Shown: piece by piece, positions 790 through 58,664 of the stretch
How the letters are laid out: each line of letters begins with the position of its first letter
Numbering within the stretch: position 1 is the first letter of the stretch
Assembly (NCBI GenBank): GCA_027021615.1
Contig: JALUTY010000045.1
Span: 62,001-126,000 of the forward strand
Source of the DNA: a bacterium
Lineage (GTDB): Bacteria; Desulfobacterota; Deferrisomatia; Deferrisomatales; Deferrisomataceae
Reading direction: 5' to 3'
Length of the DNA: 64,000 bases
The notes under the pieces: generated by a model
Told to the model about the DNA's origin: nothing
Database searches by the model: none
What the model saw: only the letters and a program-made list of their open reading frames with translations
Program-made: the position numbers and the translations under genes

Positions 790-821
790 CGCTAAGAAGC
801 TGGGAGGTTGGGAGGCTGGGA
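790..821 (-). repeat. Octamer repeat array in the lspA-lgt spacer
   Basis: Read on the minus strand, the spacer contains four consecutive 8-bp units: TCCCAGCC, TCCCAACC, TCCCAGCT, TCTTAGCG. They end 9 bp before the lgt start codon. The same TCCAGCNN-type octamers recur in other spacers of this window (about 40048, 42633, 56732 and 60143). This is the simplest copy of the modular spacer family described in the findings. Confidence 0.75.
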
Positions 822-7469: not shown

Positions 7470-7666
7470 TCAGGTGTCAGGGGCCAGAGGTCAGATGATA
7501 CGGCCGCACGTGGCTCTCCAGCAGACCCCACGCCCCCCGAAGCCTTGACGTCGGGCTCAGGAGCCGCCCGGCCGCCCAGCGGCCTAGCAGCCCAGCCGCC
7601 CAGCGGGCCGAAGACCCCAGACCGACGACCAACGACTGACGACCAACGACCGAAGCTACATGGAAG
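7470..7666 (+). repeat. Composite modular spacer repeat between rsmB and mcp
   Basis: Between the divergent genes rsmB and mcp (7270-7839). Four NCAGNNN heptamers occupy 7470-7497 (TCAGGTG, TCAGGGG, CCAGAGG, TCAGATG). They are followed by a conserved block with GGCTCTCCAGCAGACCCCA (7512-7530), GCCCAGC octamers (about 7571-7605) and a GGGCCGAAG mini-hairpin. Then come five GACCRAC-type heptamers at 7620-7654 and the terminal GAAGCTACATGGAAG. Orientation is toward mcp. The remaining 170 bp before mcp shows nothing recognisable except the ribosome binding site. Confidence 0.8.
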
Positions 7667-9548: not shown

Positions 9549-9910
9549 GCCGCGTGCTGGTGGTGGACGACGCGGCCTTCATGCGTCAGACCCTGAGGGA
9601 TGTCCTGGAGGGGGCCGGCCACGAGGTGGTGGCCGAGGCCGAGGACGGGGAGGAGGCTTTGGCCCTGTACGAGACGCACCGGCCCGACCTGGTCACCCTG
9701 GACCTGGTGATGCCCCGCATGGGGGGCATCGAGGTGCTCCGGGAGCTGAGACGGCGTCATCCCGAGGCCCGGGTGGTGGTGTGCTCGTCGGTCAGCGACG
9801 AGACCTCGATCCTCGAGGCGATTCGGCTCGGGGCCCGGGACTACGTTCTCAAGCCCGTTTCCGCAGAGAAGCTCCGAGAGGCGGTGGCAAAGGCCGGGAG
9901 GGGGCCGTGA
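9545..9910 (+). CDS. cheY: CheY-like response regulator
   Basis: A stand-alone receiver domain of 121 residues that would be phosphorylated by CheA. The acidic pair is in VLVVDDAAF (residues 4-12), the phospho-acceptor Asp in VTLDLVMPRMGG, the Ser/Thr switch in VVVCSSVSDE and the Lys in YVLKPVS. GTG at 9545 overlaps the cheW stop as GTGA, and the cheA start overlaps this stop in the same way. No output domain is present, so the output is presumably the flagellar switch or another protein interaction. Confidence 0.93.
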   Translation: MSRVLVVDDAAFMRQTLRDVLEGAGHEVVAEAEDGEEALALYETHRPDLVTLDLVMPRMGGIEVLRELRRRHPEARVVVCSSVSDETSILEAIRLGARDYVLKPVSAEKLREAVAKAGRGP

Positions 9911-11817
9911 GCGCCGGCATGGAGCGGTACCGGAAGCTGTTCCTGGAGGAGAGCCTGCGGCACCTGGAGGCGGCCGAGGAGGTGCTGGGCCGGGATGCCG
10001 CGGGGCCCCAGGACCTGGAGGCGGTGTTCCGGGAGATCCACAGCCTCAAGGGCATGGCCGGGTCCATGGGGTTCGCTGCCATGGCCGAGCTGGCCCACCG
10101 GCTGGAGGATCTGCTGGACGCCTGGCGGGTCCGGGGAACGGTGCCTGGGGCCGAGGAGCGGGAGCTGGCCCTGCGGGCCTGCGACCGTCTCGCCGAGATG
10201 CGCGACGACATCGCCGCCGGCGGGGCGGGCGACGTGGCGTGGGACGACCTGGCCGGGCACTTGGGCCGGGCGGCCGAACCAGAGGGGGGGCAGGGGGCCG
10301 ACGGCCTGCGGGTTCGGATCCACCTGGCCCCGGACTCCGGATCGCCGGCCGCACGGGCGTACCTGATCCTGCTGCGGTTCCGGGAGGCGGACCCGGCCGT
10401 GACAAGCGACCCGCCGGAGGCCGAGATCCTTCAGGGGGGGGGCGTGGAGGCCCTGGACCTGGTGGTCCACGGCCTCGGCCGGGCCGACGTGGAGGCCCTG
10501 TACGAGACCCTGACCGAGGTGGCGGGGCTCGAGTTCCCGGACCCGGCTCCCCTTTCGGAGCCCGCGCCCCATGCGCCCGTCCCTTCTCCCCCCGAGGAGG
10601 CCGCGCCACCTCCCCCACCCGAGACCTCGCCGCCCCCGCCCGAGCCACCCGAGGGCCCCCGGGTCCGCCTGCCCGAGACGGTGCAGGTCCCGGTGGGCAT
10701 CCTGGACTCGTTCGTGGACCTGTTGGGCGAGCTCACCATCGCCCGGAGCCACATCGAGAACTCGGCCCGGCGCCTGGGCTCGGAGGTGCTCCTGGAGGAG
10801 GTGGACCGGTTGGGCCGGATCGTCCGGGGGTTCCACAGCAGGGTGATGGAGCTGCGGATGCTCCCGTTCGGACTGGTGGTGGGGGGGCTGCGGCGCCTTG
10901 TGCGGGACCAGGCGGCCCGGCTCGGCAAGTCGGTGACCCTGGAGGTTCGGGGCGAGGAGATCGGGCTGGACAAATCGATCCTCAGCCGGATCTCCGATCC
11001 CCTGGTTCACCTGGTGCGTAACGCCCTGGACCACGGCATCGAGCCTCCCAAGGTGAGGGAGAGGGTGGGGAAGCCCGCCCAGGCCCTGCTGCGGATCGAG
11101 GCCGAGAGGGTGCGCAACCGGGTGGAGGTGCGGGTGTGCGACGACGGCAAGGGCATCGACGTGGAGGCGGTGCGGCGCCGGGCCGTGGATCTGGGCCTGG
11201 TGACCGAGGCGGACAGCCGCTCGCTGAGCCCGGCCGAGATCTTCGGATTCCTGTTCCGGCCGGGGTTCTCGACCCGGGAGGAGGTGTCGGAGCTGTCGGG
11301 TCGGGGGGTGGGGCTCGACGTGGTGAAGGCCCAGGTGGACGCCATGGGAGGCACGGTGGAGCTGACATCCTCACCCGGGGAGGGCGCCGAGGTGAGGATG
11401 AGCCTGCCCCTGTCCGTGGCGATCGTGCCGGTGCTGCTGGTCGGGTTGGGAAGGCGAGTGCTGGCTCTGCCCACGGCCGCGATCCACCGAACGGTGGAGG
11501 CCTCGCCCCGGGACGTGCGTCGCACGCCGGACGGCCACGTGCTCCTCACCGAGAAGGGCCAGGTTCCCATCGCAGCGCTGGGGAAGATCGTGGGGTTCCC
11601 GTGTCGCACCCGGTTCGAGCGGATGCCCCTGGTGCTGACCGCGTCCCAGGCCGGCACGGTGGCCTTGGCGGTGGACGCCTTCCTGGGCGAGCAGGATCTG
11701 TTCATCAAGCCGCTGAAGGGGCCCCTGCGGGCCCTGCGGGGGGTCGGCGGCTACTCGGTGCTGGGCGACGGCCGGCTGGTGTTCCTGCTCGACCCCCCCA
11801 GCCTGCTTCCCGCGTGA
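9907..11817 (+). CDS. cheA: Chemotaxis histidine kinase CheA
   Basis: A 636-residue kinase. The N-terminal HPt domain has the phosphorylated histidine in EIHSLKGMAGS (His45). A central region carries a Pro-rich linker at about residues 216-250. The dimerisation helices (about 258-320) include LLGELTIARSHIEN. The ATPase domain has the N box HLVRNALDHGIE, DDGKGID and GRGVGLDVV, and a C-terminal CheW-like domain starts near residue 500. GTG at 9907 overlaps the cheY stop as GTGA; ATG at 9919 is an alternative. No cheR or cheB follows: the next gene is convergent, 29 bp away. Adaptation enzymes must be encoded elsewhere or be absent from this pathway. Confidence 0.95.
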   Translation: MSAGMERYRKLFLEESLRHLEAAEEVLGRDAAGPQDLEAVFREIHSLKGMAGSMGFAAMAELAHRLEDLLDAWRVRGTVPGAEERELALRACDRLAEMRDDIAAGGAGDVAWDDLAGHLGRAAEPEGGQGADGLRVRIHLAPDSGSPAARAYLILLRFREADPAVTSDPPEAEILQGGGVEALDLVVHGLGRADVEALYETLTEVAGLEFPDPAPLSEPAPHAPVPSPPEEAAPPPPPETSPPPPEPPEGPRVRLPETVQVPVGILDSFVDLLGELTIARSHIENSARRLGSEVLLEEVDRLGRIVRGFHSRVMELRMLPFGLVVGGLRRLVRDQAARLGKSVTLEVRGEEIGLDKSILSRISDPLVHLVRNALDHGIEPPKVRERVGKPAQALLRIEAERVRNRVEVRVCDDGKGIDVEAVRRRAVDLGLVTEADSRSLSPAEIFGFLFRPGFSTREEVSELSGRGVGLDVVKAQVDAMGGTVELTSSPGEGAEVRMSLPLSVAIVPVLLVGLGRRVLALPTAAIHRTVEASPRDVRRTPDGHVLLTEKGQVPIAALGKIVGFPCRTRFERMPLVLTASQAGTVALAVDAFLGEQDLFIKPLKGPLRALRGVGGYSVLGDGRLVFLLDPPSLLPA

Positions 11818-13976: not shown

Positions 13977-13997
13977 TTCGGTCGTCGGTTGTCGGTC
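13977..13997 (-). repeat. GACCGNN heptamer array upstream of the rel-like gene
   Basis: Three 7-bp units on the minus strand (GACCGAC, AACCGAC, GACCGAA) followed by GTT, ending about 37 bp before the GTG of the rel-like gene. It belongs to the terminal module of the spacer family and points toward that start. The rest of the 13938-14303 gap holds a second, opposite copy (14171-14280) and about 150 bp in which I see nothing recognisable. Confidence 0.7.
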
Positions 13998-14170: not shown

Positions 14171-14280
14171 CCCCCATGCCCTCCGAGCTTTGGCGCGGCT
14201 CGAGGGCCGTCCGGCCGCCCAGCTCTCCAGCGGGCCGAAAGCCCCAGACCGACGACCGTCGACCGAAGTTGCTGGGAAAC
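14171..14280 (+). repeat. Composite modular spacer repeat, plus orientation
   Basis: Contains the block CCCATGCCCTCCGAGCTTTGG (14173 onward), GGCCGCCCAGC and TCCAGCGGGCCGAAAGCCCC with the mini-hairpin, then three heptamers GACCGAC, GACCGTC, GACCGAA at 14247-14267 and GTTGCTGGGAA. Its block is nearly the same as the one in the 23.9 kb copy. This copy points at the 3' end of ubiB rather than at a gene start, an exception to the general rule. Confidence 0.75.
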
Positions 14281-23865: not shown

Positions 23866-24138
23866 GGTCGTTCACTTTGGGCCTTCGGCCCTCTGGGAGG
23901 CTGGGCTGCTGGGCGGCCGGACGGCTCTCGAACCGCGCCAAAGCTCGGGCGGCATGGGGTCCGCTGGGAAGCCGCGTGCGGCTCCTTGGCTCGCCGCGCA
24001 GCGCCTCCAACGCTTGCACCGTGAAACCGTTCGGTCCCCGGCCGACTGCCATGAAACCACCGTTGGTGCCCCGTGCCTGCGCGGCGAATCTCATGTCCGG
24101 CTTCGCGCGCGGCCGGAAGCAGATCCCATGTCCCCGGC
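23866..24138 (-). repeat. Composite spacer repeat between cbiB and the diguanylate cyclase
   Basis: Fills almost all of the 286-bp gap. On the minus strand it reads as a 190-bp module (23945-24138), then a block with GCCCGAGCTTTGGCGCGG and GCCGTCCGGCC. GCCCAGC octamers (GCCCAGCA, GCCCAGCC, TCCCAGAG) and the mini-hairpin GGGCCGAAGGCCC follow, and a short AAAGTGAACGACC tail runs straight into the ATG. The block matches the copy at 14171-14280. The GACCGNN heptamer array is reduced to one degenerate unit here. Confidence 0.8.
23945..24138 (-). repeat. 190-bp dispersed repeat module, copy A
   Basis: About nine-tenths identical to 39784-39976, in inverted orientation relative to that copy. Both copies share an open frame beginning MRFAAQARGTNGGFMAV (here 24094 downward) and an internal GC hairpin. 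No transposase, terminal inverted repeats or target-site duplication is evident. Confidence 0.85.
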
Positions 24139-31508: not shown

Positions 31509-31632
31509 TCCAGAGACTAGAAACCGGAGACTAGAGAAACAGACCTTCTCTCGTGGCGGTGCTGGGAGCGCGTCGGTTGCGGCGACCCGAGGAGCCGCTC
31601 CTGGCTCTCCATCAGACCCCTACCCCGCGCGC
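31509..31632 (+). repeat. Partial composite spacer repeat upstream of the methyltransferase gene
   Basis: Four heptamers at 31509-31536 (TCCAGAG, ACTAGAA, ACCGGAG, ACTAGAG) are followed by a diverged copy of the conserved block with GGCTCTCCATCAGACCCCTA (about 31603-31622). The octamer and GACCGNN modules are absent. Lies in the divergent pckA/methyltransferase gap (31380-31803), whose remaining bases show only the pckA promoter and the methyltransferase ribosome binding site. Confidence 0.7.
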
Positions 31633-32797: not shown

Positions 32798-32840
32798 TTC
32801 GGTCGTCGGTTTGGGGCCTTCGGCCCGCGGGCCGAAGACC
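32798..32840 (-). repeat. Short composite spacer repeat between methyltransferase and hesB-like genes
   Basis: On the minus strand, a GGGCCGAAGGCCCC hairpin region is followed by two heptamers (AACCGAC, GACCGAA) and GTTAG, which forms the TAA stop of the methyltransferase gene on the other strand. It fills the 49-bp convergent gap. Confidence 0.65.
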
Positions 32841-32845
32841 CCGGC

Positions 32846-33163
32846 TCAGCAGCCGCCCGAGCAGCCGGAGGCGCAGTCCGCGGTCTGGGACCGGGCCTTC
32901 ACCACGAAGCCCCGGCGTAAGGGGCCCGACAGGTACTCTACCCGGATCCCGCCCACCTGGGTGAGCAGGGATCGGTTCATCACCAGCCGAAACCCGTCCT
33001 CGGCATGCACGGTGTCGTCGTCTTTGGGCTCATCCAGAGCCAGGCCCCAGGAGGGCCCGCCTCACCCCATGCCCGAGATGTAGATGCGCACGGCCGGGTT
33101 CTCGCCGTGCTCCTGGAGGGACTCCTTGAGCTTCTCCCTCGCCTTGTCGGTCAGCTCGATCAT
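32846..33163 (-). CDS. HesB/IscA-like selenoprotein (in-frame UGA = Sec34)
   Basis: ATG at 33163 has AGGAG 8 bp upstream. Translation gives 33 residues (MIELTDKAREKLKESL...IYISGMG), a TGA at 33064-33062, then 71 residues in the same frame starting GGPSWGLALDEPKDDD and ending CASGCSGGC. Non-selenoprotein HesB/IscA-like relatives have GCGGP with Cys exactly where the TGA falls. The ALDEPKD string and the Cys-rich C-terminus fit the family, which makes or carries Fe-S clusters. HesB-like selenoproteins are known in Deltaproteobacteria. A candidate SECIS hairpin follows the UGA. A nonsense mutation is the alternative, but no other lesion is visible. No sel genes occur in the window. Confidence 0.83.
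33027..33041 (-). promoter_or_regulatory. Candidate bacterial SECIS hairpin
   Basis: On the minus strand, 20 nt after the UGA, GGCTC and GAGCC form a 5-bp stem around the loop TGGAT. The loop has a G at its second position and lies about 25 nt from the UGA, within the distance known for bacterial SECIS elements. A second possible stem (GGCCC/GGGCC, about 33044-33056) lies between it and the UGA. Confidence 0.5.
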
Positions 33164-33620: not shown

Positions 33621-35129
33621 TCAACCCTTGCGCTGCATGGCCACCCGGCCCTGGGGGCCGAACCGCTCGTAGGTGAACTCGACTTGGCCCACCGGGTTCT
33701 CCATCTTCCGCACCGCCGTGCCCACCCGCACCGTGACCCCGGGAAACACTTTTTCCGCCTCCACCCGGGCTCGGATCGGATCGGGTTCGGGTAGGGCCTG
33801 GGCCCTGGCTTCCCACTCGTCCGCGGCTGCTTCCAAAGAGGCGGGGGCCCCCTCGGCCCGGGCCCGTTGGGAGAGCAAGGCGGCCCATCCGGAGAAGGCG
33901 GCCCGGAACGGATCGATGGTACGGGCTCGTGCCACCGAGACCTCGGTGGCCAGGTTGTTGGGGCTTCCCAGCTCCCCGGCTCGAATCCGTTCGCCCGCCT
34001 CCAGCAACCCGCCCCGGCAGGCCCCGCCGTGGGCCACCCAGATGGCGCGAAGGGCGGTGAGCCGGCCCTTCATGGAGTAACGGCGGACGTGGATCACCGA
34101 GGCGATCACGTGGGCCCGCTCGAAGAACTCGGCCGACACCACCCCGCCCACCCGGAGGGGTACCGCACGGGTCTGAATCACGCCAGCCGCTGTGAACAGG
34201 GACCCCATCACCTCCACCGGCGAGCGGATCAGGCTGCCCCGGATCTCCAGGTCGCCCATCACCCGGACGGGGAACGGCGCCTCCAGGTCTCCGTCCACCA
34301 CCACCGTGGCGGGAATGACCTCGTCTCTCCACCGCCGCAGGTCCTGAGCGGAAGCCACCCGTACCACCGGCATCAGGTACGCCTGCGAGCGCTCCGGGTC
34401 TGCGAACCGGATCTGGCCCGCGGCCTGGGCCACCACCGTGCGGCCGTCGGGCGCCAAGCCCAGCCCCGAGCCCAGCCGCACCCGACTCTCCCCTGGCTTG
34501 GGGGGAATCGGCTCCCCCCGTACCGTCAGCCCCGCTGTGCCTTGACCCGGAGGCACGAAGGTGCCCGCGGCCTGGCCCGGCTCCACCACCAGCAGAGAGG
34601 GCTCCGCCATGTCGGCGCCGGCCTCCAGGGCTTCCAGGAACACGTGGGGGTCCACCGGGGCTCCCCCCCGCCAATCGACCCGAGAGGGGGAGCCGTCTAC
34701 CGGCGGGCGGCCCCGGGCTACCTCCACGGGCTCCTGATAGTCTCGCCGCAGGTAGGCCCGCCGAAGGGCGTCGGTATCGAGCAGCTCGTCGGGCACGCCG
34801 TAGGCGTGCACGAGTTCGCCCAGCTCCTTCTCCGTGAGCCGGGCCCCCCGGCCCTTGGGCGGGTACAGGATCAGGTAGGCGGTCAGCCCGTCGTCGGAGA
34901 AACGGACCTTGGCCTTCTCGCCCCGGAACGCCTCGGCACTGCGGCTTGCCACCGGAAACGCCCGGCCCCGGCCGTACCGGTACGCCTCCCGCACCGCCAC
35001 CCAGTCGATGGCCACCCCGGGCAGGTCCTGCCGGAGCCTGCGCACCACCGCCGACAACGGATCCGGATCCCGGGGCACCCGCAGATACACCCGTCCTGCC
35101 CTGGCCTCGATCGTCAGGCTCTCCGCCAT
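33621..35129 (-). CDS. FapA / DUF342-family protein
   Basis: A 502-residue cytoplasmic protein matching the FapA (DUF342) polymer-forming family. An N-terminal domain of about 140 residues is followed by a right-handed beta-helix core built from imperfect repeats (AAGTFVPPGQGTAGLTVRGEPIPP, then VVVDGDLEAPFPVRVMGDLEIRG and LRVGGVVSAEFF). A C-terminal helical region follows (about 400-480). FapA proteins are found near flagellar and chemotaxis genes and have been tied to polar flagellum number in Vibrio. The neighbouring receiver proteins are consistent with a signalling role, but function is not established. Confidence 0.78.
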   Translation of the reverse strand: MAESLTIEARAGRVYLRVPRDPDPLSAVVRRLRQDLPGVAIDWVAVREAYRYGRGRAFPVASRSAEAFRGEKAKVRFSDDGLTAYLILYPPKGRGARLTEKELGELVHAYGVPDELLDTDALRRAYLRRDYQEPVEVARGRPPVDGSPSRVDWRGGAPVDPHVFLEALEAGADMAEPSLLVVEPGQAAGTFVPPGQGTAGLTVRGEPIPPKPGESRVRLGSGLGLAPDGRTVVAQAAGQIRFADPERSQAYLMPVVRVASAQDLRRWRDEVIPATVVVDGDLEAPFPVRVMGDLEIRGSLIRSPVEVMGSLFTAAGVIQTRAVPLRVGGVVSAEFFERAHVIASVIHVRRYSMKGRLTALRAIWVAHGGACRGGLLEAGERIRAGELGSPNNLATEVSVARARTIDPFRAAFSGWAALLSQRARAEGAPASLEAAADEWEARAQALPEPDPIRARVEAEKVFPGVTVRVGTAVRKMENPVGQVEFTYERFGPQGRVAMQRKG

Positions 35130-35208: not shown

Positions 35209-35466
35209 CACTTCGGTCGTTGGTCGTCGGTCTGGGGCTTTCGGCCCGCTGGACGGCTGGGCTGCCAGGCGGCCGGGCGGGTCCTGAAGCCCGGACGCCA
35301 AGACCTCGGGGGCATGGGGCTCTGTTGGAGCGGCCGCCCGCCTAACGGGTCGAGCTACCCGGAATTCCTCTATTCTAGTCTCTGCCCCCGGCACTCGCGC
35401 CCGGCCGGAGGCAGGTCTCTTGCCCCGCCCCCCGAGGGTCCTCGGCTTGAACGCAACTCGGTATCA
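35209..35466 (-). repeat. Full-length composite spacer repeat between response regulator and fapA-like gene
   Basis: Reading the minus strand from the response-regulator stop: a hairpin module TGATACC..GTTGCGTTCAA (35466-35419), an ACTAGAA heptamer tract (about 35365-35381), and a block with TCCAACAGAGCCCCATGCCCC. GCCCAGCC octamers, GGGCCGAAAGCCCC and three GACCNAN heptamers (35232-35212) follow. It occupies most of the 334-bp gap, is collinear with transcription, and follows the same module order as the 50.6-51.0 kb spacer. Confidence 0.82.
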
Positions 35467-39698: not shown

Positions 39699-40123
39699 TC
39701 AGGAACCGGAATTCAGCTCCAGTAGACCGCGAGGCGGCCTGTTTGCGAAGAAATAACTCGAACCGATCCCCGCACAGTTTCGGCGGTGGGGCATGGGGTC
39801 CACTTCCGGCCGCGCGCGAAGCCGGGCATGAGATTCGCCGCGCAGGCACGGGGCACCAACGGCGGTTTCATGGCAGTCCGGCCGGGACCGAACGGTTTCA
39901 CGGTGCGAGCGTTGGAGGCGCTGCGCGGCGAGCCAAGGAGCCGCACGCGGCTCTCCAGCAGACCCCATGCCCCCCGAGACCGTGAGGTGGCGCCAAAGAG
40001 GCGTGGTCATGCTTGGAATGCTGGGAGATCACGGAGGGTTTCAATCCTTCTAGCATCCTAGCCTTCCAGCTTTCTAGCGGGCCGAAGGCCCAGACCAACG
40101 ACCGACGACCAACGACCGAAGTT
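39699..40123 (+). repeat. Composite spacer repeat between ilvD and ilvB
   Basis: Fills most of the 39586-40141 gap. Three heptamers TCAGGAA, CCGGAAT, TCAGCTC lie at 39699-39719 and the 190-bp module at 39784-39976. Four octamers TTCTAGCA, TCCTAGCC, TTCCAGCT, TTCTAGCG at 40048-40079 precede the hairpin GGGCCGAAGGCCC. Four heptamers GACCAAC, GACCGAC, GACCAAC, GACCGAA at 40093-40120 end the element with GTT. The ilvB ribosome binding site follows 7 bp later. Confidence 0.85.
39784..39976 (+). repeat. 190-bp dispersed repeat module, copy B
   Basis: Inverted relative to 23945-24138 and about nine-tenths identical. An open frame starting MRFAAQARGTNGGFMAV at 39828 is kept in both copies for about 45 codons. 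A hairpin GAGCCGC-AC-GCGGCTC lies at 39938-39953. Confidence 0.85.
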
Positions 40124-42332: not shown

Positions 42333-42385
42333 CCCGCGGACGTTGGTCCGGGCCCATTGCCGGCGGCGGGCATGGGGCCTGCGGT

Positions 42386-43700
<1,315 letters not shown>

Positions 43701-48224: not shown

Positions 48225-49613
48225 ATGGAAGGGGAAGAAGGGGGGATTCCCTGGAAAGAGATCGTGGAGGCGTTGGCCACCCCCGTGAGCCTCCACGGTC
48301 CGGACCGCACCGTGGTGTACCAAAACCCGGCCCATCGCAAGGCGTTCGGGTCGGCCGAGGGCCGGCAATGCCACGAGTTCCTCTGGGGACGGGCCGCTCC
48401 CTGCGCAAGGTGCCCCCTGGGGCCAGAAGGGCCGGCCGCACGGGAGGTGGACCTGTCCGGGGGGCGTGCCCTGCTCACCGCGGTCCCGTTCGGGTCGGAC
48501 CGGGCCGTGGTGATGGAGTGGATGGGACCCCGGTCCCCTCGGGAGTGGGTGCTGGAGACCCTGCACCGGGCGTTCGAGGTGGCGGACACGGCCATGTTCG
48601 TGGAGGAGCTGAACGGCCGGATCCTGGACGTGAACCGGGCCGCCGAGGCCCTGTTCGGCCTCCCCCGGGATCAGTTGGTGGGGCGAACCGTGGCCGAGCT
48701 GCTGCCGCCGGAGACGCTGGAGCTGGTGCCGGGGGTGCGGGAGGATCTGGCCCGCCGCGGCCGGTTCGAGATCGAGGCTTGGCAGTCCCGGCCGGACGGC
48801 AGCCGGTTCCTGGGCCGAGTGGCCGGGGTGCTCCATCGGGACCCGGAGGGGGAGTTCGTGGTGGTCACGGTGCGTGACGTCACGGCCGAGCGCCTGGAGA
48901 AGGAGGTCCTGGCCGAGCGCAATCGAGAGCTGGAGGGGTTCCTGTACGCCGTGGCCCACGACCTGCGCGGTCCCCTGGGCACGGCCCGGGGGTACGCGGC
49001 GCTGCTGGAGGAGCGGTTGCGGGGCGGGCGACCCGAAGGGGCCGAGGGAATGTGTCGGCAGCTCCGGATCCAGGTGGACCGGCTGGGGGGACTGCTTGAG
49101 GACCTCCTGGCCTTCGCCCGGCTCGGTGCCGAGCGGCCAGCGGTCCGGGACCTGGACCTGGCCGCCGCCTGCCGCAGCGCCTGGGCCGACCTCGGGCTTC
49201 GGGTGGAGGAGACCGGGGCGGAGCTGGCGGTGGGTGCCTCTCTGCCTCGCGTGCGCATGGCCCCGGTGCGGCTCCACCAGGTGCTCCTCAACCTGTTCGG
49301 TAACGCGTTGCGGTACCGCCGGCTGGGGGTAGAGCCCCGGGTTCGGGTGCGCCGTGCGGGGCAGGAGGAAGCAGATCCCAAGCCGGGGTATGCCTGCGTG
49401 GTGGTGGAGGACAACGGCCCGGGCATCCCCCAGGGTATGGAGGAGAGGGTGTTCCAGCTGTTCGTACGGGGTAGCCAGGAGCGCAAGGGCAGCGGAATGG
49501 GCCTGGCCATCGTGCGCCGGGTGGTCGCGGCCGAAGGGGGCCGGGTGTGGCTTCGGTCCACACCGGGCGAGGGCTGCCGGTTCTATCTGGAGCTGCCCGA
49601 GGCCGAGGGATGA
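48225..49613 (+). CDS. Soluble PAS-domain sensor histidine kinase
   Basis: A 462-residue cytoplasmic kinase. A first PAS-like region (about 1-105) includes CHEFLWGRAAPCARCPLG, with a Cys pattern (C...C..C) that could bind metal or sense redox. A second PAS domain (about 110-235) includes GRILDVNRAAEALFGL. The H box is AVAHDLRGPLG (His about 246), and the ATPase has N box LLNLFGNALRYR, EDNGPGIP and GSGMGLAIV. No membrane segment is present. No response regulator gene is adjacent. ATG 48225 is preferred over upstream in-frame codons that overlap the methyltransferase gene. Its stop overlaps the hemH start as ATGA. Confidence 0.88.
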   Translation: MEGEEGGIPWKEIVEALATPVSLHGPDRTVVYQNPAHRKAFGSAEGRQCHEFLWGRAAPCARCPLGPEGPAAREVDLSGGRALLTAVPFGSDRAVVMEWMGPRSPREWVLETLHRAFEVADTAMFVEELNGRILDVNRAAEALFGLPRDQLVGRTVAELLPPETLELVPGVREDLARRGRFEIEAWQSRPDGSRFLGRVAGVLHRDPEGEFVVVTVRDVTAERLEKEVLAERNRELEGFLYAVAHDLRGPLGTARGYAALLEERLRGGRPEGAEGMCRQLRIQVDRLGGLLEDLLAFARLGAERPAVRDLDLAAACRSAWADLGLRVEETGAELAVGASLPRVRMAPVRLHQVLLNLFGNALRYRRLGVEPRVRVRRAGQEEADPKPGYACVVVEDNGPGIPQGMEERVFQLFVRGSQERKGSGMGLAIVRRVVAAEGGRVWLRSTPGEGCRFYLELPEAEG

Positions 49614-50560
49614 CTGGGGTCGTGCTGTGCAACATGGGCGGGCCGGACTCGCTTCAGGCGGTCCGGCCCTTTTTGGAGAACCTGTTCTCCGACCCCGAGA
49701 TCCTGCGTTTTCCCCTCTCGGGAATCCTCCAGCAGCCCCTGGCCCGGTGGATCAGCCGAAGGCGGGCTCCCAAGGTGGCCGAGCGGTACCGCCGGATCGG
49801 GGGGAGGAGCCCGATCGGGGAGATCACCCGGGCCCAGGCCGACGCCCTCGCCTCGGCCCTGGGTTCGGACTGGGCCGTGACCGTGGCCATGCGCTACTGG
49901 CATCCCCGGGCCCGGGAGGCCGCGGCCGAGCTTCGTGGACAGAGGGCGAGTCGGATCGTGGTGCTGCCCCTCTACCCCCAGTACAGCCGGGCCACCACGG
50001 GGTCGAGCCTGGCCGACCTGGAGACCGGCCTTGTTGCCGAGGGCCTAGGTGGTGTCCCTAGAAGGGTGGTCCGCTCGTGGCACGACCACCCGGCCTACCT
50101 CGATGCCTTGGCCGAGGCGGTGGACGAGGGGCTTCGAGACCTCGGCGAGGCCACGGTTCTTTTCAGCGCCCACAGCCTGCCGATGAAGCTGATCGAGCAG
50201 GGGGACCCCTACCTGGACCAGGTGCGGGTCACTGTGGCCGGGGTTGTGGAGCGGTTGAAGAACCCGTCCCACCGGCTGGCCTTCCAGAGCCGCACCGGGC
50301 CGGTGCGATGGCTTGGCCCGGGCGTGGAGGAGACCCTGGAGACCTTGGCGGCCGAAGGGGTGCGCCGGGTGCTTGTGGCACCCGTGAGCTTCGTCTCGGA
50401 CCACATCGAGACCCTCTACGAGATCGACGTGGAGTACGCTGAGCTGGCCCGGACCCTCGGCATCCGGGAGTTCCGCCGGTGCCCCGGCCTGAACACCCGG
50501 CCCTCCTTCATCCAAGCCCTGGCCACGATCGCTCGGGACGCAGCCCGGGGCCTGGGGTGA
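49610..50560 (+). CDS. hemH: Ferrochelatase (HemH family)
   Basis: A 316-residue chelatase inserting iron into protoporphyrin IX or, in organisms using the coproporphyrin route, coproporphyrin III. Family motifs are LCNMGGPDSLQAVRPFL (about residues 6-22), RYWHPRA, LPLYPQYSRATTGS (about 120-133), the catalytic His in LFSAHSLPMKLIEQGDPY (about 183-200) and APVSFVSDHIETLYEID (about 258-274). ATG at 49610 overlaps the histidine kinase stop. Heme supply fits an organism rich in multiheme cytochromes. A composite repeat follows the gene. Confidence 0.95.
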   Translation: MTGVVLCNMGGPDSLQAVRPFLENLFSDPEILRFPLSGILQQPLARWISRRRAPKVAERYRRIGGRSPIGEITRAQADALASALGSDWAVTVAMRYWHPRAREAAAELRGQRASRIVVLPLYPQYSRATTGSSLADLETGLVAEGLGGVPRRVVRSWHDHPAYLDALAEAVDEGLRDLGEATVLFSAHSLPMKLIEQGDPYLDQVRVTVAGVVERLKNPSHRLAFQSRTGPVRWLGPGVEETLETLAAEGVRRVLVAPVSFVSDHIETLYEIDVEYAELARTLGIREFRRCPGLNTRPSFIQALATIARDAARGLG

Positions 50561-50580
50561 GCTTCCTCGGGAATCCCTGG

Positions 50581-50960
50581 TGATACCAGGTTGCGTTCAA
50601 ACCGAGAGCTCTCGGGGAGCGGGGCGAGCTAGAGACTAGAAACTAGCAAAATCTTAGGGAGCTCGACTCCTGAGGGGGGCGTTCCAACAGGCCCCCCGCC
50701 GCCGGGTTGGCGAGAGCCACTTGCCTGGGGGCCAGGAGACCGAAGACCGAAGACCGTGGACCGAAGTTACATGGAAGGCGGCCGGTTTGCCATCGACCGG
50801 GGGTCGGTCTATAAGGGAGCCTCGTCAGCCCCCTGCGGGGTCGTCTAGAGACCAGAAACCAGCAGAGCTAGAAACTAGACACTTCTAGCCTTCCAGCGGG
50901 CCGAAGGCCCCGACCGAAGACCGTAGACCGACGACCGTAGACCGACGACCGTAGACCGAA
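50581..50960 (+). repeat. Double composite spacer repeat between hemH and the thiolase gene
   Basis: Fills most of the 439-bp gap. The hairpin module TGATACC..GTTGCGTTCAA lies at 50581-50628, followed by heptamers GCTAGAG, ACTAGAA, ACTAGCA at 50628-50648. A block with TCCAACAGGCCCC precedes GCCAGGA, GACCGAA, GACCGAA, GACCGTG, GACCGAA at 50731-50765 and GTTACATGGAAG. A second set follows: CTAG/CCAG heptamers at 50844-50878, an octamer, GGGCCGAAGGCCCC, and seven consecutive GACCGNN units at 50912-50960. The gene start is 40 bp further on. Confidence 0.88.
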
Positions 50961-50999
50961 GTTACATGACACCACTTTCTTTGGAGGGAGGAGCTGCAC

Positions 51000-52280
51000 A
51001 TGCGAGACGTCGTGATCGTATCCGGGGCCCGCACCGCCGTGGGGAACTTCGGCGGCGCGCTCAAGGATGTGCCGGTGGCCGACCTGGGGGCCGCCGCCGT
51101 CAAGGGAGCCCTGACCCGGGCCGGGGTGCGGCCCGTGGCCGGCGAGGCCCTGCGGGCGGTGGCGCCCGAGGCGCTCGGCCAGGACCCCATCGAGCTGGAG
51201 ACTCGGTACCACGACTACGACGAGGCCTTTCGGCCCCTGCAGGTGGACGAGGTGATCCTGGGCAACGTGGTGGGCGCGGGCCAGGGACAGAACGTGGCCC
51301 GGCAGGCATCGATCCGGGCGGGAGTGGCCAAGGAGACGCCGGCGTTCACCGTGAACAAGGTGTGCGCTTCGGGCATGAAGGCCGTGGCCCTGGCCGCCCA
51401 GGCCATTCGGGAGGGAGAGGCCGACGCGGTGGTTGCCGGCGGCATGGAGAACATGAGCCAGATCCCTTACGCCCTGCCTGCCGGCCGGTGGGGGGCCCGC
51501 ATGAACAACACCGACCTTGTGGACCTGATGGTCCACGACGGCCTGTGGGAGTGTTTCTACGGGTACCACATGGGCCACACCGCCGAGAACCTGGCCGCCC
51601 TGTATGGGATCAGCCGTCAGGACCAGGACGAGCTGGGGGCGCTGAGCCACCAGCGGGCCCGGGCGGCCCAGGCCGACGGCCGGTTCGCGGCCGAGATCGT
51701 GCCGGTGAGCGTTCCCCAGCGCCGGGGGGACCCGGTGACCGTGGACACGGACGAGCGACCCATGGACACCAGCGTGGAGAAGATGGCCAAGCTCCGGCCG
51801 GCCTTCAAGAAGGACGGCACGGTCACGGCGGGCAACGCCTCGGGCATCAACGACGGCGCGGCCGCCCTGCTGCTAATGGGGGCGGACGCGGCCGAGGCGG
51901 CCGGCCTTGAGCCCTTGGCGCGAATCGTGTCATGGGCCTCGGGCGGGGTGGATCCGGCCTACATGGGCGTGGGGCCGGTGCCCGCCGCCCGGAGGGCCCT
52001 GGCCAAGGCGGGAATCACGGTGGCCGACCTGGACCTTGTGGAACTCAACGAGGCGTTCGCGGCCCAGGCCATCGCGTGCATGCGGGAACTGGGTCTCGAT
52101 ATCGACAAGACGAACGTGGTGGGAAGCGGCATCTCCTTGGGGCATCCCATCGGGTGCAGCGGCGCTCGGATCGTGGTCACTCTGACGAACGAGCTCAAGC
52201 GGCGGGGCGGACGGTACGGCCTGGCCACCCTGTGCATCGGAGGTGGGCAGGGCATGGCCCTGGTGGTGGAGGCCTTGTAG
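51000..52280 (+). CDS. Acetyl-CoA C-acetyltransferase (thiolase)
   Basis: Thiolase-family enzyme joining or cleaving acetoacetyl-CoA or another 3-oxoacyl-CoA. The 426-residue protein has the acylated Cys in [16 protein letters not shown] (Cys122), [10 protein letters not shown] (about 380-389) and [11 protein letters not shown] at the end. It carries an insert of about 33 residues (about 46-80, containing [15 protein letters not shown]) before the first conserved core helix; this is why it is longer than the usual ~393 residues and why Cys122 is shifted. The ATG at 51000 follows GGAGGGAGGAG. No other beta-oxidation genes are adjacent. Confidence 0.92.
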
Positions 52281-56731: not shown

Positions 56732-56770
56732 TTTCAAGCGTCCCAGCGTCCCAGCGGAAGTCACATGGAA
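56732..56770 (+). repeat. Octamer array and terminal motif before the permease gene
   Basis: Octamers TTCAAGCG, TCCCAGCG, TCCCAGCG (56732-56755) are followed by GAAGTCACATGGAAG, the terminal motif of the composite repeat. The permease start codon lies 7 bp further on. The GACCGNN module is missing, so octamers and terminal motif can occur alone. Confidence 0.75.
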
Positions 56771-56777
56771 GGAACCC

Positions 56778-58664
56778 ATGGAGTTCTACCTGGTACAGGC
56801 CCTGAACGGGCTGGCCTCGGCCTCGTCCCTGTTCCTGGTGGCCTCGGGCCTGTCGATCATCTTCGGGGTCACCCGCATCGTGAATTTCGCCCACGGGTCC
56901 TTCTACATGCTCGGGGCCTACATCGCCTACACCCTGGTGCAGGTCCTGCCGCCCGGCGCCGCAGGGTACTGGGCCGCGGTCCTGGGCGCCGCCCTCGCGG
57001 TGGGCCTGATCGGCGCGGCCGTGGAGCTCCTGCTCCTGCGCCGGATCTACCGGGCCCCGGAGCTGTTCCAGCTCCTGGCCACCTTCGGGCTGGTGCTCGT
57101 GGTGGCCGACCTGGTGCTGATGATCTGGGGCCCCGAGGATCTGCTGGGGCCCAGGGCCCCGGGGCTGCGGGGCTCGGTGATGATCCTGGGGGAGCCGTTC
57201 CCCACCTACGAGCTCTTCATGATCGCCCTGGGGCCCCTGGTGCTCGGCGGGCTCTGGGTGCTGTTCCACCGCACCCGGTGGGGCACCCTGGTGCGGGCGG
57301 CCACGGAGGACCGGGAGATGGTGGGCGCCCTTGGGGTGAACGAGGCGTGGCTGTTCACCTCGGTGTTCGTCCTGGGATCGTTCCTGGCGGGCCTCGGGGG
57401 CGCGGTGCAGCTCCCCCGGGAGGCCGTGAACCACACTATGGACCTCCACATCATCGCCGAGGTGTTCGTGGTGGTGGTGGTCGGGGGCATGGGGAGCATC
57501 CTGGGCGCCTTCCTGGCCGCCGTCCTGATCAGCGAGCTCAACGCCTTCGGGATCCTGATCTTCCCCGAGATCACCCTGGTGCTCGTGTTCCTGATCATGG
57601 CGGCCGTGCTCATCTTCCGGCCCTGGGGCCTCCTGGGCCGGCCCGAGGGACCGCCGCGCGCGCCGGCCGGGGAGCACGAGCCGCCCCTGAGGCTCCTGGG
57701 GCGGGGGTTCCTGTACTTCTGCCTGGCCGTGCTGGCCGCGGCCGCCGTTCTGCCCCACCTGCTGCCCACCTACTACATCCGGATCGCGTGCGAGGTGCTC
57801 ATCTCGGCCCTGTTCGCCGCGAGCCTCGGGTTCATGATGACCGTGGGGGGCATGGCCTCCTTCGGCCACGCGGCCTACTTCGGCCTGGGGGCCTACGGGG
57901 CGGCCCTGGCCGTGACCTACGCCCAGGTGGGCACCGGGCTCGGGCTCGCCGCCGCCCTGGGCCTGGGGCTCGCGGGTGCGGTGCTGTTCGGGTACTTCTG
58001 CGTGCGCCTGAGCGGGGTGTACTCGGCCATGCTCACCCTGGCCTTCGCCCAGATCGTGTACGCCGTGCTGTTCCAGTGGTACGGGATCACGGGCGGCGAC
58101 AACGGGCTCCTGGGCATCTGGCCCTCCGACTGGGTGAGCAGCCCCCTGGCCTATTACTACCTCACCCTGGCCGTGGTGGCGGTGTCCCTGTTCCTGCTCC
58201 GGCGCCTCGCCTTCGCCCCCTTCGGGTACTCCCTGCGGGCGGGGCGGGACTCGGCGCTTCGGTCCGAGGCCATCGGCATCCACGTGCGCCGGGTCCGGTG
58301 GGTGGGCTTCGTGATCGCGGGGTTCTTCGCCGCCGCCGCCGGCGGGCTGTTCGCGTTCCTCAAGGGCAGCGTGTTCCCCGACTACTCGAGCATCCCCGTG
58401 TCGGTGGACTCCCTGGTGATGGTGCTCCTGGGCGGGGTCCAGACCCTGTCGGGCCCCATCGTCGGGGCCGGGGTGTACAAGGTGCTCGAGGTGTTCGTGA
58501 ACCGGTACACCGAGCACTGGCAGCTCATCCTGGGCTGCGTGCTGGTGGGCCTGGTGATCCTGTTCCCCCAGGGGATCCTGGGGTACCTGGTGGGCCGGTT
58601 CGGCCGCTCCGGGGAGGAGTGGAGGGGAGTCGATGGCGCTCCTGCGGGTGGAAGGGCTGCGTAA
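56778..58664 (+). CDS. Fused Liv-type ABC permease (LivH-LivM)
   Basis: A 628-residue inner-membrane protein combining both permease subunits that are normally separate. The N-terminal half (about 1-295) is LivH-like: FGVTRIVNFAHGSFYMLGAY and VVGGMGSILGAFLAAVLI. A hydrophilic linker (about 296-325) precedes the LivM-like half, with GGMASFGHAAYFGLGAYG and LLGGVQTLSGPIVGAGVY. Each half has eight or so hydrophobic segments. ATG at 56778 lies just after GGAAGGAA; longer in-frame starts run into the repeat. The gene overlaps livG by 32 bp. Confidence 0.92.
   Translation: MEFYLVQALNGLASASSLFLVASGLSIIFGVTRIVNFAHGSFYMLGAYIAYTLVQVLPPGAAGYWAAVLGAALAVGLIGAAVELLLLRRIYRAPELFQLLATFGLVLVVADLVLMIWGPEDLLGPRAPGLRGSVMILGEPFPTYELFMIALGPLVLGGLWVLFHRTRWGTLVRAATEDREMVGALGVNEAWLFTSVFVLGSFLAGLGGAVQLPREAVNHTMDLHIIAEVFVVVVVGGMGSILGAFLAAVLISELNAFGILIFPEITLVLVFLIMAAVLIFRPWGLLGRPEGPPRAPAGEHEPPLRLLGRGFLYFCLAVLAAAAVLPHLLPTYYIRIACEVLISALFAASLGFMMTVGGMASFGHAAYFGLGAYGAALAVTYAQVGTGLGLAAALGLGLAGAVLFGYFCVRLSGVYSAMLTLAFAQIVYAVLFQWYGITGGDNGLLGIWPSDWVSSPLAYYYLTLAVVAVSLFLLRRLAFAPFGYSLRAGRDSALRSEAIGIHVRRVRWVGFVIAGFFAAAAGGLFAFLKGSVFPDYSSIPVSVDSLVMVLLGGVQTLSGPIVGAGVYKVLEVFVNRYTEHWQLILGCVLVGLVILFPQGILGYLVGRFGRSGEEWRGVDGAPAGGRAA

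Follow-up and report, generated by a model that had tools for sequence, protein, structure and literature searches.

The spacer at 50561-50999, which separates the genes for ferrochelatase (49610-50560) and a thiolase (51000-52280), is the densest example in our window of short tandem arrays with units of seven and eight base pairs, and it raises the question of what such arrays are and why they should stand where they do. The window is the whole 64-kb stretch of DNA analyzed here (positions 62001-126000 of contig 45; GC content 70.8%), taken from a 4.25-Mb genome in 134 contigs (G000).

Anatomy and abundance of the composite element

Direct reading of the spacer recovered the array that had first drawn attention to it, namely exactly seven GACCGNN units at a perfect period of 7, together with the CTAG-type heptamers, which were located in three runs (Table 1). 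The other array, which the earlier note had read as five units starting at 50731, holds four perfect units, the earlier start adding a degenerate GCCAGGA; it is preceded by a hairpin of the form CCTGG-GGG-CCAGG and followed by GTTACATGGAAG. The thiolase gene starts (51000) 39 nt after the 3' end of the seven-unit array, and the Shine-Dalgarno sequence of the host, GGAGGGAGGAG, comes after the trailer that closes the composite. A promoter scanner found no sigma-70 promoter in the spacer; a TTGCCA-17-TATAAG arrangement was spotted by eye near 50785-50819.

Table 1. Repeat modules in the spacer 50561-50999 and elsewhere in the window
Position	Strand	Feature	Remarks
50581..50600	+	TGATACCAGGTTGCGTTCAA, dispersed module	related to ends of 220-bp element inserted in congener
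50629..50646	+	CTAGANA heptamers	
50738..50765	+	four-unit GACCGNN array, second type	direct sequence
50845..50878	+	CTAGANA / CCAGANA heptamers	two short runs (50845-50862, 50868-50878)
50885..50900	+	octamer module CTAGCCTT CCAGCGGG	runs into hairpin
50898..50910	+	hairpin GGGCC-GAA-GGCCC	1 nt 5' of seven-unit array
50912..50960	+	seven-unit GACCGNN array	direct sequence, TRF, unit parsing
50961..50984	+	composite-end trailer, starts GTTACATGACACC	direct sequence
near 799-821		octamers	partial copy
7576..7654	+	octamers; GACC array, six degenerate units	ortholog: three units
13977..13997	-	three-unit array	left end, facing outward, of the intergenic region that also holds 14219-14267
14219..14267	+	octamers, hairpin, three-unit array	right outward-facing end of intergenic composite; ortholog: five units
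23879..23912	-	hairpin and octamers, no array	adjoining 232 bp missing in G021
31510-31520		CTAG heptamers	partial copy
32798..32826	-	hairpin and two-unit remnant array	between convergent genes; direct sequence
35212..35260	-	octamers, hairpin, three-unit array	faces start of gene 33621-35129(-)
40050..40120	+	octamers, hairpin (40079-40091), four-unit array (40093-40120)	
42387..42481	.	two CAGRRNN heptamer arrays as an inverted pair	cassette not in G021, another cassette instead
42534..42666	+	octamers, hairpin (42555-42567), four-unit array (42570-42597)	within ilvBNC gene run
42642-42665	+	second octamer array	abuts ilvC Shine-Dalgarno
56743..56758	+	octamers, no hairpin or heptamers	stop 20 nt before gene at 56778

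The same modules recur across the window. The copies thought to share this module order carry GACC arrays at 7613-7654, 14247-14267, 35212-35232(-), 40093-40120 (stopping 21 nt before ilvB) and 42570-42597, and each of the suspected partial copies was located and, on direct reading, is a genuine fragment of the same modules. The hairpin, GGGCCGAA[A/G]GCCC, occurs seven times in the window. An Rfam search of the window at the gathering threshold returned one tRNA and no other family. Close to the remnant at 32798-32826 lies a HesB/IscA-like ORF (32846-33163, reverse strand) that contains a TGA in frame (context GMG-U-GGPSWG) and reads as a probable selenoprotein.

In its reading direction the composite consists of octamers of the form CYAGCNNY, the hairpin GGGCC-GAA-GGCCC, the array (GACCGNN)n ending in a GACCGAA unit, and a trailer, GTTACNNGGARG, for which 97 arrays followed by a co-directional gene give the consensus GTTAC. 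The modules are those that the earlier note described, except that octamers and heptamers also occur separately and that the hairpin, which had been called constant, is common only: of 110 sampled arrays with three or more units, 58 carry a perfect stem (5 bp or longer) directly 5', as against 4.7% of control positions, and two of these 58 use the alternative hairpin CCTGGGGGCCAGG (CCTGG-GGG-CCAGG). The period holds at exactly 7, while in the larger sample the number of units ranges from 2 to 11 with a mode of 5, a wider span than the 2 to 7 originally proposed. When the arrays were read without an imposed unit pattern, positions 1-5 were conserved at 84-97% and the NN positions at 53-56%, in agreement with the drift ascribed to the last two bases, and in five-unit arrays the departures from the column consensus were concentrated in NN.

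Searching the whole genome revealed further copies by the hundred: (GACCGNN)x2+GACCG matched 303 times, overlaps included, and its reversed form 0 times. Across 119 kb of intergenic sequence sampled in two congeners, 92 lag-7 runs were counted, compared to 0.3 in shuffled sequence and 1.5 in an equal amount of coding DNA, and 62 lag-8 runs, compared to 0.7 and 0.8, respectively. Most other lags were near zero, apart from the multiples 14 (49 runs) and 16 (28 runs), and the periodicity thus exceeds that of shuffles at periods 7 and 8 (plus 14 and 16) only. A phylum-wide draw of 247 genomes showed the pattern to be abundant solely in the genus of the window, with 332 matches in the complete genome of one congener (G021) and 130 in the MAG of another (G200). 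There was 1 match in the sister genus (G176), and there were 12-24 per genome in two distant families, where the NN bases differ and the GACCG arrays lack the hairpin and a constant orientation and are mixed among other heptamers. A scan for hairpin plus array returned only one congener MAG from a genome collection from which the window's own genome and its near relatives were possibly excluded.

Sampled stretches from two families (f14 and f22) and from genome G161 contain abundant intergenic period-7 arrays built of the unrelated motifs TAGGTCA, CTTTGAC, TAACGNN and TTCAGYC, as well as some arrays of periods 8 and 9, so that the period is shared across lineages and the sequence is lineage-specific. 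The lag test found no period-7 runs in the sister genus or, in small samples, in two other genomes. A fixed period combined with a lineage-specific sequence would be compatible with a fixed-length template, as in telomerase-fashion templating by a reverse transcriptase. However, RVT_1 domains are absent from G000, from the complete G021 genome and from the f14 and f22 genomes tested that carry other heptamer arrays, which excludes this mechanism as far as the RVT_1 profile reaches and leaves it with a negligible probability.

Position of the arrays and the proposed leader tract

Genes were called with a purpose-written codon-usage caller, and their start positions are hence approximate; the array statistics derive from about 0.8 Mb of sampled stretches, picked partly for array richness, in two congeners whose loci are not independent. 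Within this sample the 3' edge of the array was the one closer to a gene in 51 of 62 cases in G000 (p = 3e-7) and in 46 of 57 in G021 (p = 3e-6), such that 97 of 119 arrays point at the nearest gene edge. Between tandem genes, 79 of 96 arrays face the start (45/52 in G000 and 34/44 in G021), and the 17 antisense ones lie mostly very near a stop codon. We noted that 31 arrays end 12-30 nt before a predicted start, with the trailer coinciding with the position of the Shine-Dalgarno sequence. Octamer arrays behave likewise (44 versus 13 in favor of starts), many of them ending 14-44 nt before the start, and in all five spacers with arrays on both strands the arrays face outward. Judged by position, many arrays are probably contained in 5' leaders or intercistronic leaders. 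Given that the composite between ilvN and ilvC lies within the ilvBNC gene run, the element need not be near a promoter.

We tentatively favor, at somewhat less than an even chance, the reading that these are dispersed composite elements derived from insertions, the 3' terminus of which is a selected leader tract of variable copy number. Under this proposal composite elements would fill the intergenic spaces of the genus with the arrays as their 3' terminal part, and in the favored orientation the series octamers, hairpin, (GACCGNN)n and trailer would end directly 5' of the next gene's Shine-Dalgarno sequence or supply it. An element ending at the Shine-Dalgarno sequence would make its array part of the 5' or intercistronic leader. 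There, acting in RNA, the conserved core with its drifting NN would offer a row of sites at a 7-nt pitch to a repeated or multimeric single-strand binder, the hairpin would cap this row at its 5' side, and the array would keep the ribosome-binding site open, with an effect on translation initiation. Slippage would add or remove whole units (7, 14 or 28 bp), and the strength of the leader could thus be tuned by unit number.

On their own, 38 of 43 arrays fold less than composition-matched shuffles. The unpaired fraction in the leader was 0.51 for the array, 0.49 for the shuffled array and 0.37 for other leaders, which lends modest support to an open leader, the gain over the shuffled array being small. 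The proposed role cannot apply to the antisense arrays. Two related candidates were rejected, namely a structured RNA leader, as the region 50820-51020 folds no better than shuffles (z = 0.14), and an expansion of cold-shock proteins as the binder, as the number of cold-shock domain genes is 3 both in genomes with arrays and in the sister.

The conserved core, the regular pitch and the outward-facing pairs could also be accounted for if the arrays were double-stranded sites for a DNA-binding global regulator, with three units spanning 21 bp or two helical turns, and a like proposal has been published for related paired repeats of Geobacter metallireducens (PMC2700814). This appears quite improbable given that the arrays stand immediately 5' of ribosome-binding sites, within the ilvBNC run as well, and are probably downstream of promoters, and that the named downstream genes display no regulon theme.

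Unit turnover, core divergence and mobile modules

Genes of G000 and G021 are about 95% identical, and unit number differs at 16 of 20 orthologous arrays; the seven-unit array of the thiolase spacer, for example, has five units in G021. Two sizes predominate among indels in the aligned arrays, 7 bp with 11 cases and 14 bp with 4. In a nucleotide alignment of these orthologous arrays and their flanks, covering 20 loci and 22 array substitutions, divergence amounted to 9/421 (2.1%) in the core, 13/167 (7.8%) in NN and 49/685 (7.2%) in the flanks (core versus NN, p = 0.003; core versus flanks, p = 0.0002). A first count on parsed units was similar (core 5/375, NN 13/150), but we prefer the alignment figure because unit recognition could bias the parsed count. 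The core accordingly looks constrained: on this alignment the five bases appear to be under purifying selection, with the two spacer bases drifting at the rate of the flanks, and biased unit exchange could mimic part of the signal.

These rates bear on the view that the arrays are functionless by-products of mutation, arising through replication slippage of 7-8 nt in poorly constrained DNA and spreading by ectopic recombination. Indels of whole units, the loss of arrays at some loci and the unrelated period-7 motifs of other families are all consistent with it, as is the over-representation of heptamers in many bacteria, for which an explanation through the contact size of the polymerase has been proposed (reported in PMC4692102). 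However, slippage copies all seven positions alike and would not be expected to produce the strong orientation bias or the proximity to Shine-Dalgarno sequences, and a related genus of similarly high GC has almost no arrays. Pure slippage is disfavored by the contrast between core and NN, and we consider the by-product view fairly unlikely.

Comparison at individual loci indicated how the arrays come and go. At ilvB the number of units is 4 in the window, 5 in G021 and 0 in G200, and in the sister the spacer is plain and 127 bp long; given that the G200 gene and its Shine-Dalgarno sequence persist without heptamers, no single array is essential. The ilvN-ilvC spacer measures 53 bp in the sister genus and 351 (window), 474 and 313 bp in three congeners, which have the same right end (octamers and AAAGGAG) and differing interior cassettes. 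These cassettes (42333-42683 of the window and its congener orthologs) are swapped between the fixed joints GGGCATGGG and CCCATGCCC, which suggests ectopic exchange among dispersed repeats. In the samples, intergenic DNA makes up 7.4% in the sister genus and about 14% in the array-bearing genus, and the spacers of the sister, with a median of 52 bp, have almost no arrays. At the loci compared, arrays were gained within the genus relative to its sister.

Clean indels between G000 and G021 comprise whole modules gained or lost, and one such module ends exactly in an array trailer and lies between TGGGA-type direct repeats. These observations bear on the main rival to the leader explanation, in which a non-autonomous, MITE-like mobile element has the arrays as its terminal recognition sites: a transposase or integration factor binding the row of units would preserve the core, and the position at gene edges would arise since the spacers were originally just about 50 bp long. 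Consistent with this are the outward-facing arrays of the five spacers with arrays on both strands, the gain and loss of modules, the short and almost array-free spacers of the sister genus, and the clear mobility of other modules in the same spacers (CTAG-flanked with terminal inverted repeats; an insertion sequence at CTAG). For the GACCG composite itself, however, we could define neither a constant second end nor terminal inverted repeats nor a regular duplication of the target, features of which the latter two were seen for other modules of these spacers; most spacers carry an array at one end only, and the 4.6:1 sense bias would require additional selection. An IS200/RAYT transposase was rejected as the spreader, its loci being unflanked by modules and present in the array-poor sister too, and the six PF01797 loci examined for a REP/RAYT (REPtron) arrangement had neither hairpin nor array. 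We regard the mobile-element interpretation as possible, if on the unlikely side.

Several of the other elements were delineated individually. A CTAG-flanked insertion of about 190 bp in G000 (about 9771-9960 of G000:C126:50001-70000), with inverted ends CTAGCCCGCATTATTCATGA / TCATGAATAATGCGGGCTAG, sits in an octamer array and is missing in G021. A 233-bp element of G021 (about 2729-2961 of G021:C1:4010001-4030000) is inserted beside octamers, starts with CTAGTGTTCCG and ends with CATGACA before CTAG; its GC-rich body is that of a 115-bp repeat present at many loci. In G021:C1:300001-320000, at a site orthologous to G000_C21b 69357-69444, a 1.54-kb insertion sequence, putatively of an IS701-like family and with a transposase-like ORF, occupies a CTAG site that adjoins an octamer array. 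A 220-bp element with ATACCRAGTTGC-type ends, found in G021 and not in G000, encloses an inverted pair of CAGRRNN heptamers. The TGATACCRRGTTGCGTTCAA module adjoins stop codons in the window (50581-50600(+) and 35447-35466(-)) and at about 305.4-305.9 kb of G021:C1. The complete genome also has four equally scoring copies of an IS200/IS605-type transposase (G021:C1:718733, 738564, 789121 and 1513274).

Relationship to known heptanucleotide repeats

A modular organization with a variable middle part is known from the BOX elements of Streptococcus pneumoniae, which lie in spacers as boxA-boxB(n)-boxC; their middle unit, boxB, is about 45 bp, and their sequence is unrelated to the GACCGNN composite. 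By their dispersed 7-bp tandem units of variable number, the GACCGNN arrays belong to the intergenic heptanucleotide repeats. The earlier note was thus right as to kind in citing the STRR-like repeats of cyanobacteria as their nearest relatives, but the GGGACCG, TAACTGA and GGGAATC repeats are closer parallels. The units of STRR proper (NNTGAGT, TDNGATT and GGGGA(C/T)T) do not contain the GACCG core. In P6b of the Nostoc trnL intron, STRR heptamers of the NNTGAGT and TDNGATT classes, which include variable positions, change in steps of 7 and 14, and entire repeat regions are replaced by the other class at the same site, resembling the cassette swaps in the window's genus (PMC4476775). However, the intron repeats form the pairing stem of a functional RNA (PMC4476775), whereas the GACCG core has no self-complement in the array.

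The closest unit is that of Gmet_H4 from Geobacter metallireducens, where GGGACCG equals GACCGGG by a shift of register and has the same GACCG core. The accessible part of its description (PMC2700814, 2009) gives 49 dispersed copies of four tandem units, some also within genes, along with five-unit MTYCTGA heptamers, comparable to CAGRRNN here, and octanucleotide arrays, several of these repeats being paired on opposite strands, and proposes that they act as regulatory RNA or regulator-binding elements. The likeness is one of unit sequence, and that part of the paper does not describe the order octamer-hairpin-heptamer-Shine-Dalgarno, the hairpin or the evolution of core and NN.

The TAACTGA repeats of marine Beggiatoaceae are of a different heptamer, and their likeness to GACCGNN is in behavior. 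In the available portion of the report (MacGregor 2015, PMC4679880) they form 169 sets of 2-6 heptamers, mostly intergenic, which face start codons and adjoin or overlap the ribosome-binding site, show no functional theme, and have been proposed to play a post-transcriptional role. The GACCGNN arrays resemble them in position towards starts; in contrast, the TAACTGA unit is nearly invariant and accompanied by few Shine-Dalgarno sequences, and the same portion describes no hairpin or octamer modules.

The heptamers GGGAATC (Xanthomonas) and GGGGA(C/T)T (Nostoc) cluster near ORF edges, at no more than 50 bp from them, with the C-rich strand towards the start and a mirror rule at stops; they vary in length between relatives at conserved locations and include some inverted pairs (Rehm et al. 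2015, PMC4692102). The strand-and-edge rule of GGGAATC resembles that of GACCGNN, but the published heptamers are G-quadruplex-forming G3/G4 units (PMC4692102), whereas the core of GACCGNN has no run of three G and our NN table shows GG just 3 times.

The excess of heptamers in bacterial spacers was noted previously and is unexplained in the cited literature, with proposals extending from polymerase slippage to regulator binding. These two can be separated here, given that the core diverges about three times more slowly than the flanks and NN keeps pace with the flanks, a contrast not predicted by plain slippage. Thus, for a type of array known but unexplained elsewhere, the sequences compared here offer evidence for selection on a five-base core. 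The genus provides hundreds of arrays in a complete genome, a sister genus nearly free of them, comparisons with empty sites, and natural differences in unit number at a single gene (0, 4 and 5 at ilvB), making the question of function directly testable. It is conceivable, though we think it rather improbable, that the period of 7 is itself what is conserved, with lineages keeping different heptamers (GACCGNN, TAACGNN, TTCAGYC and TAGGTCA) at the same pitch since a widespread single-strand binder would read leaders in 7-nt steps. If this were true, arrays beside the ribosome-binding site would constitute a general, tunable translational leader device.
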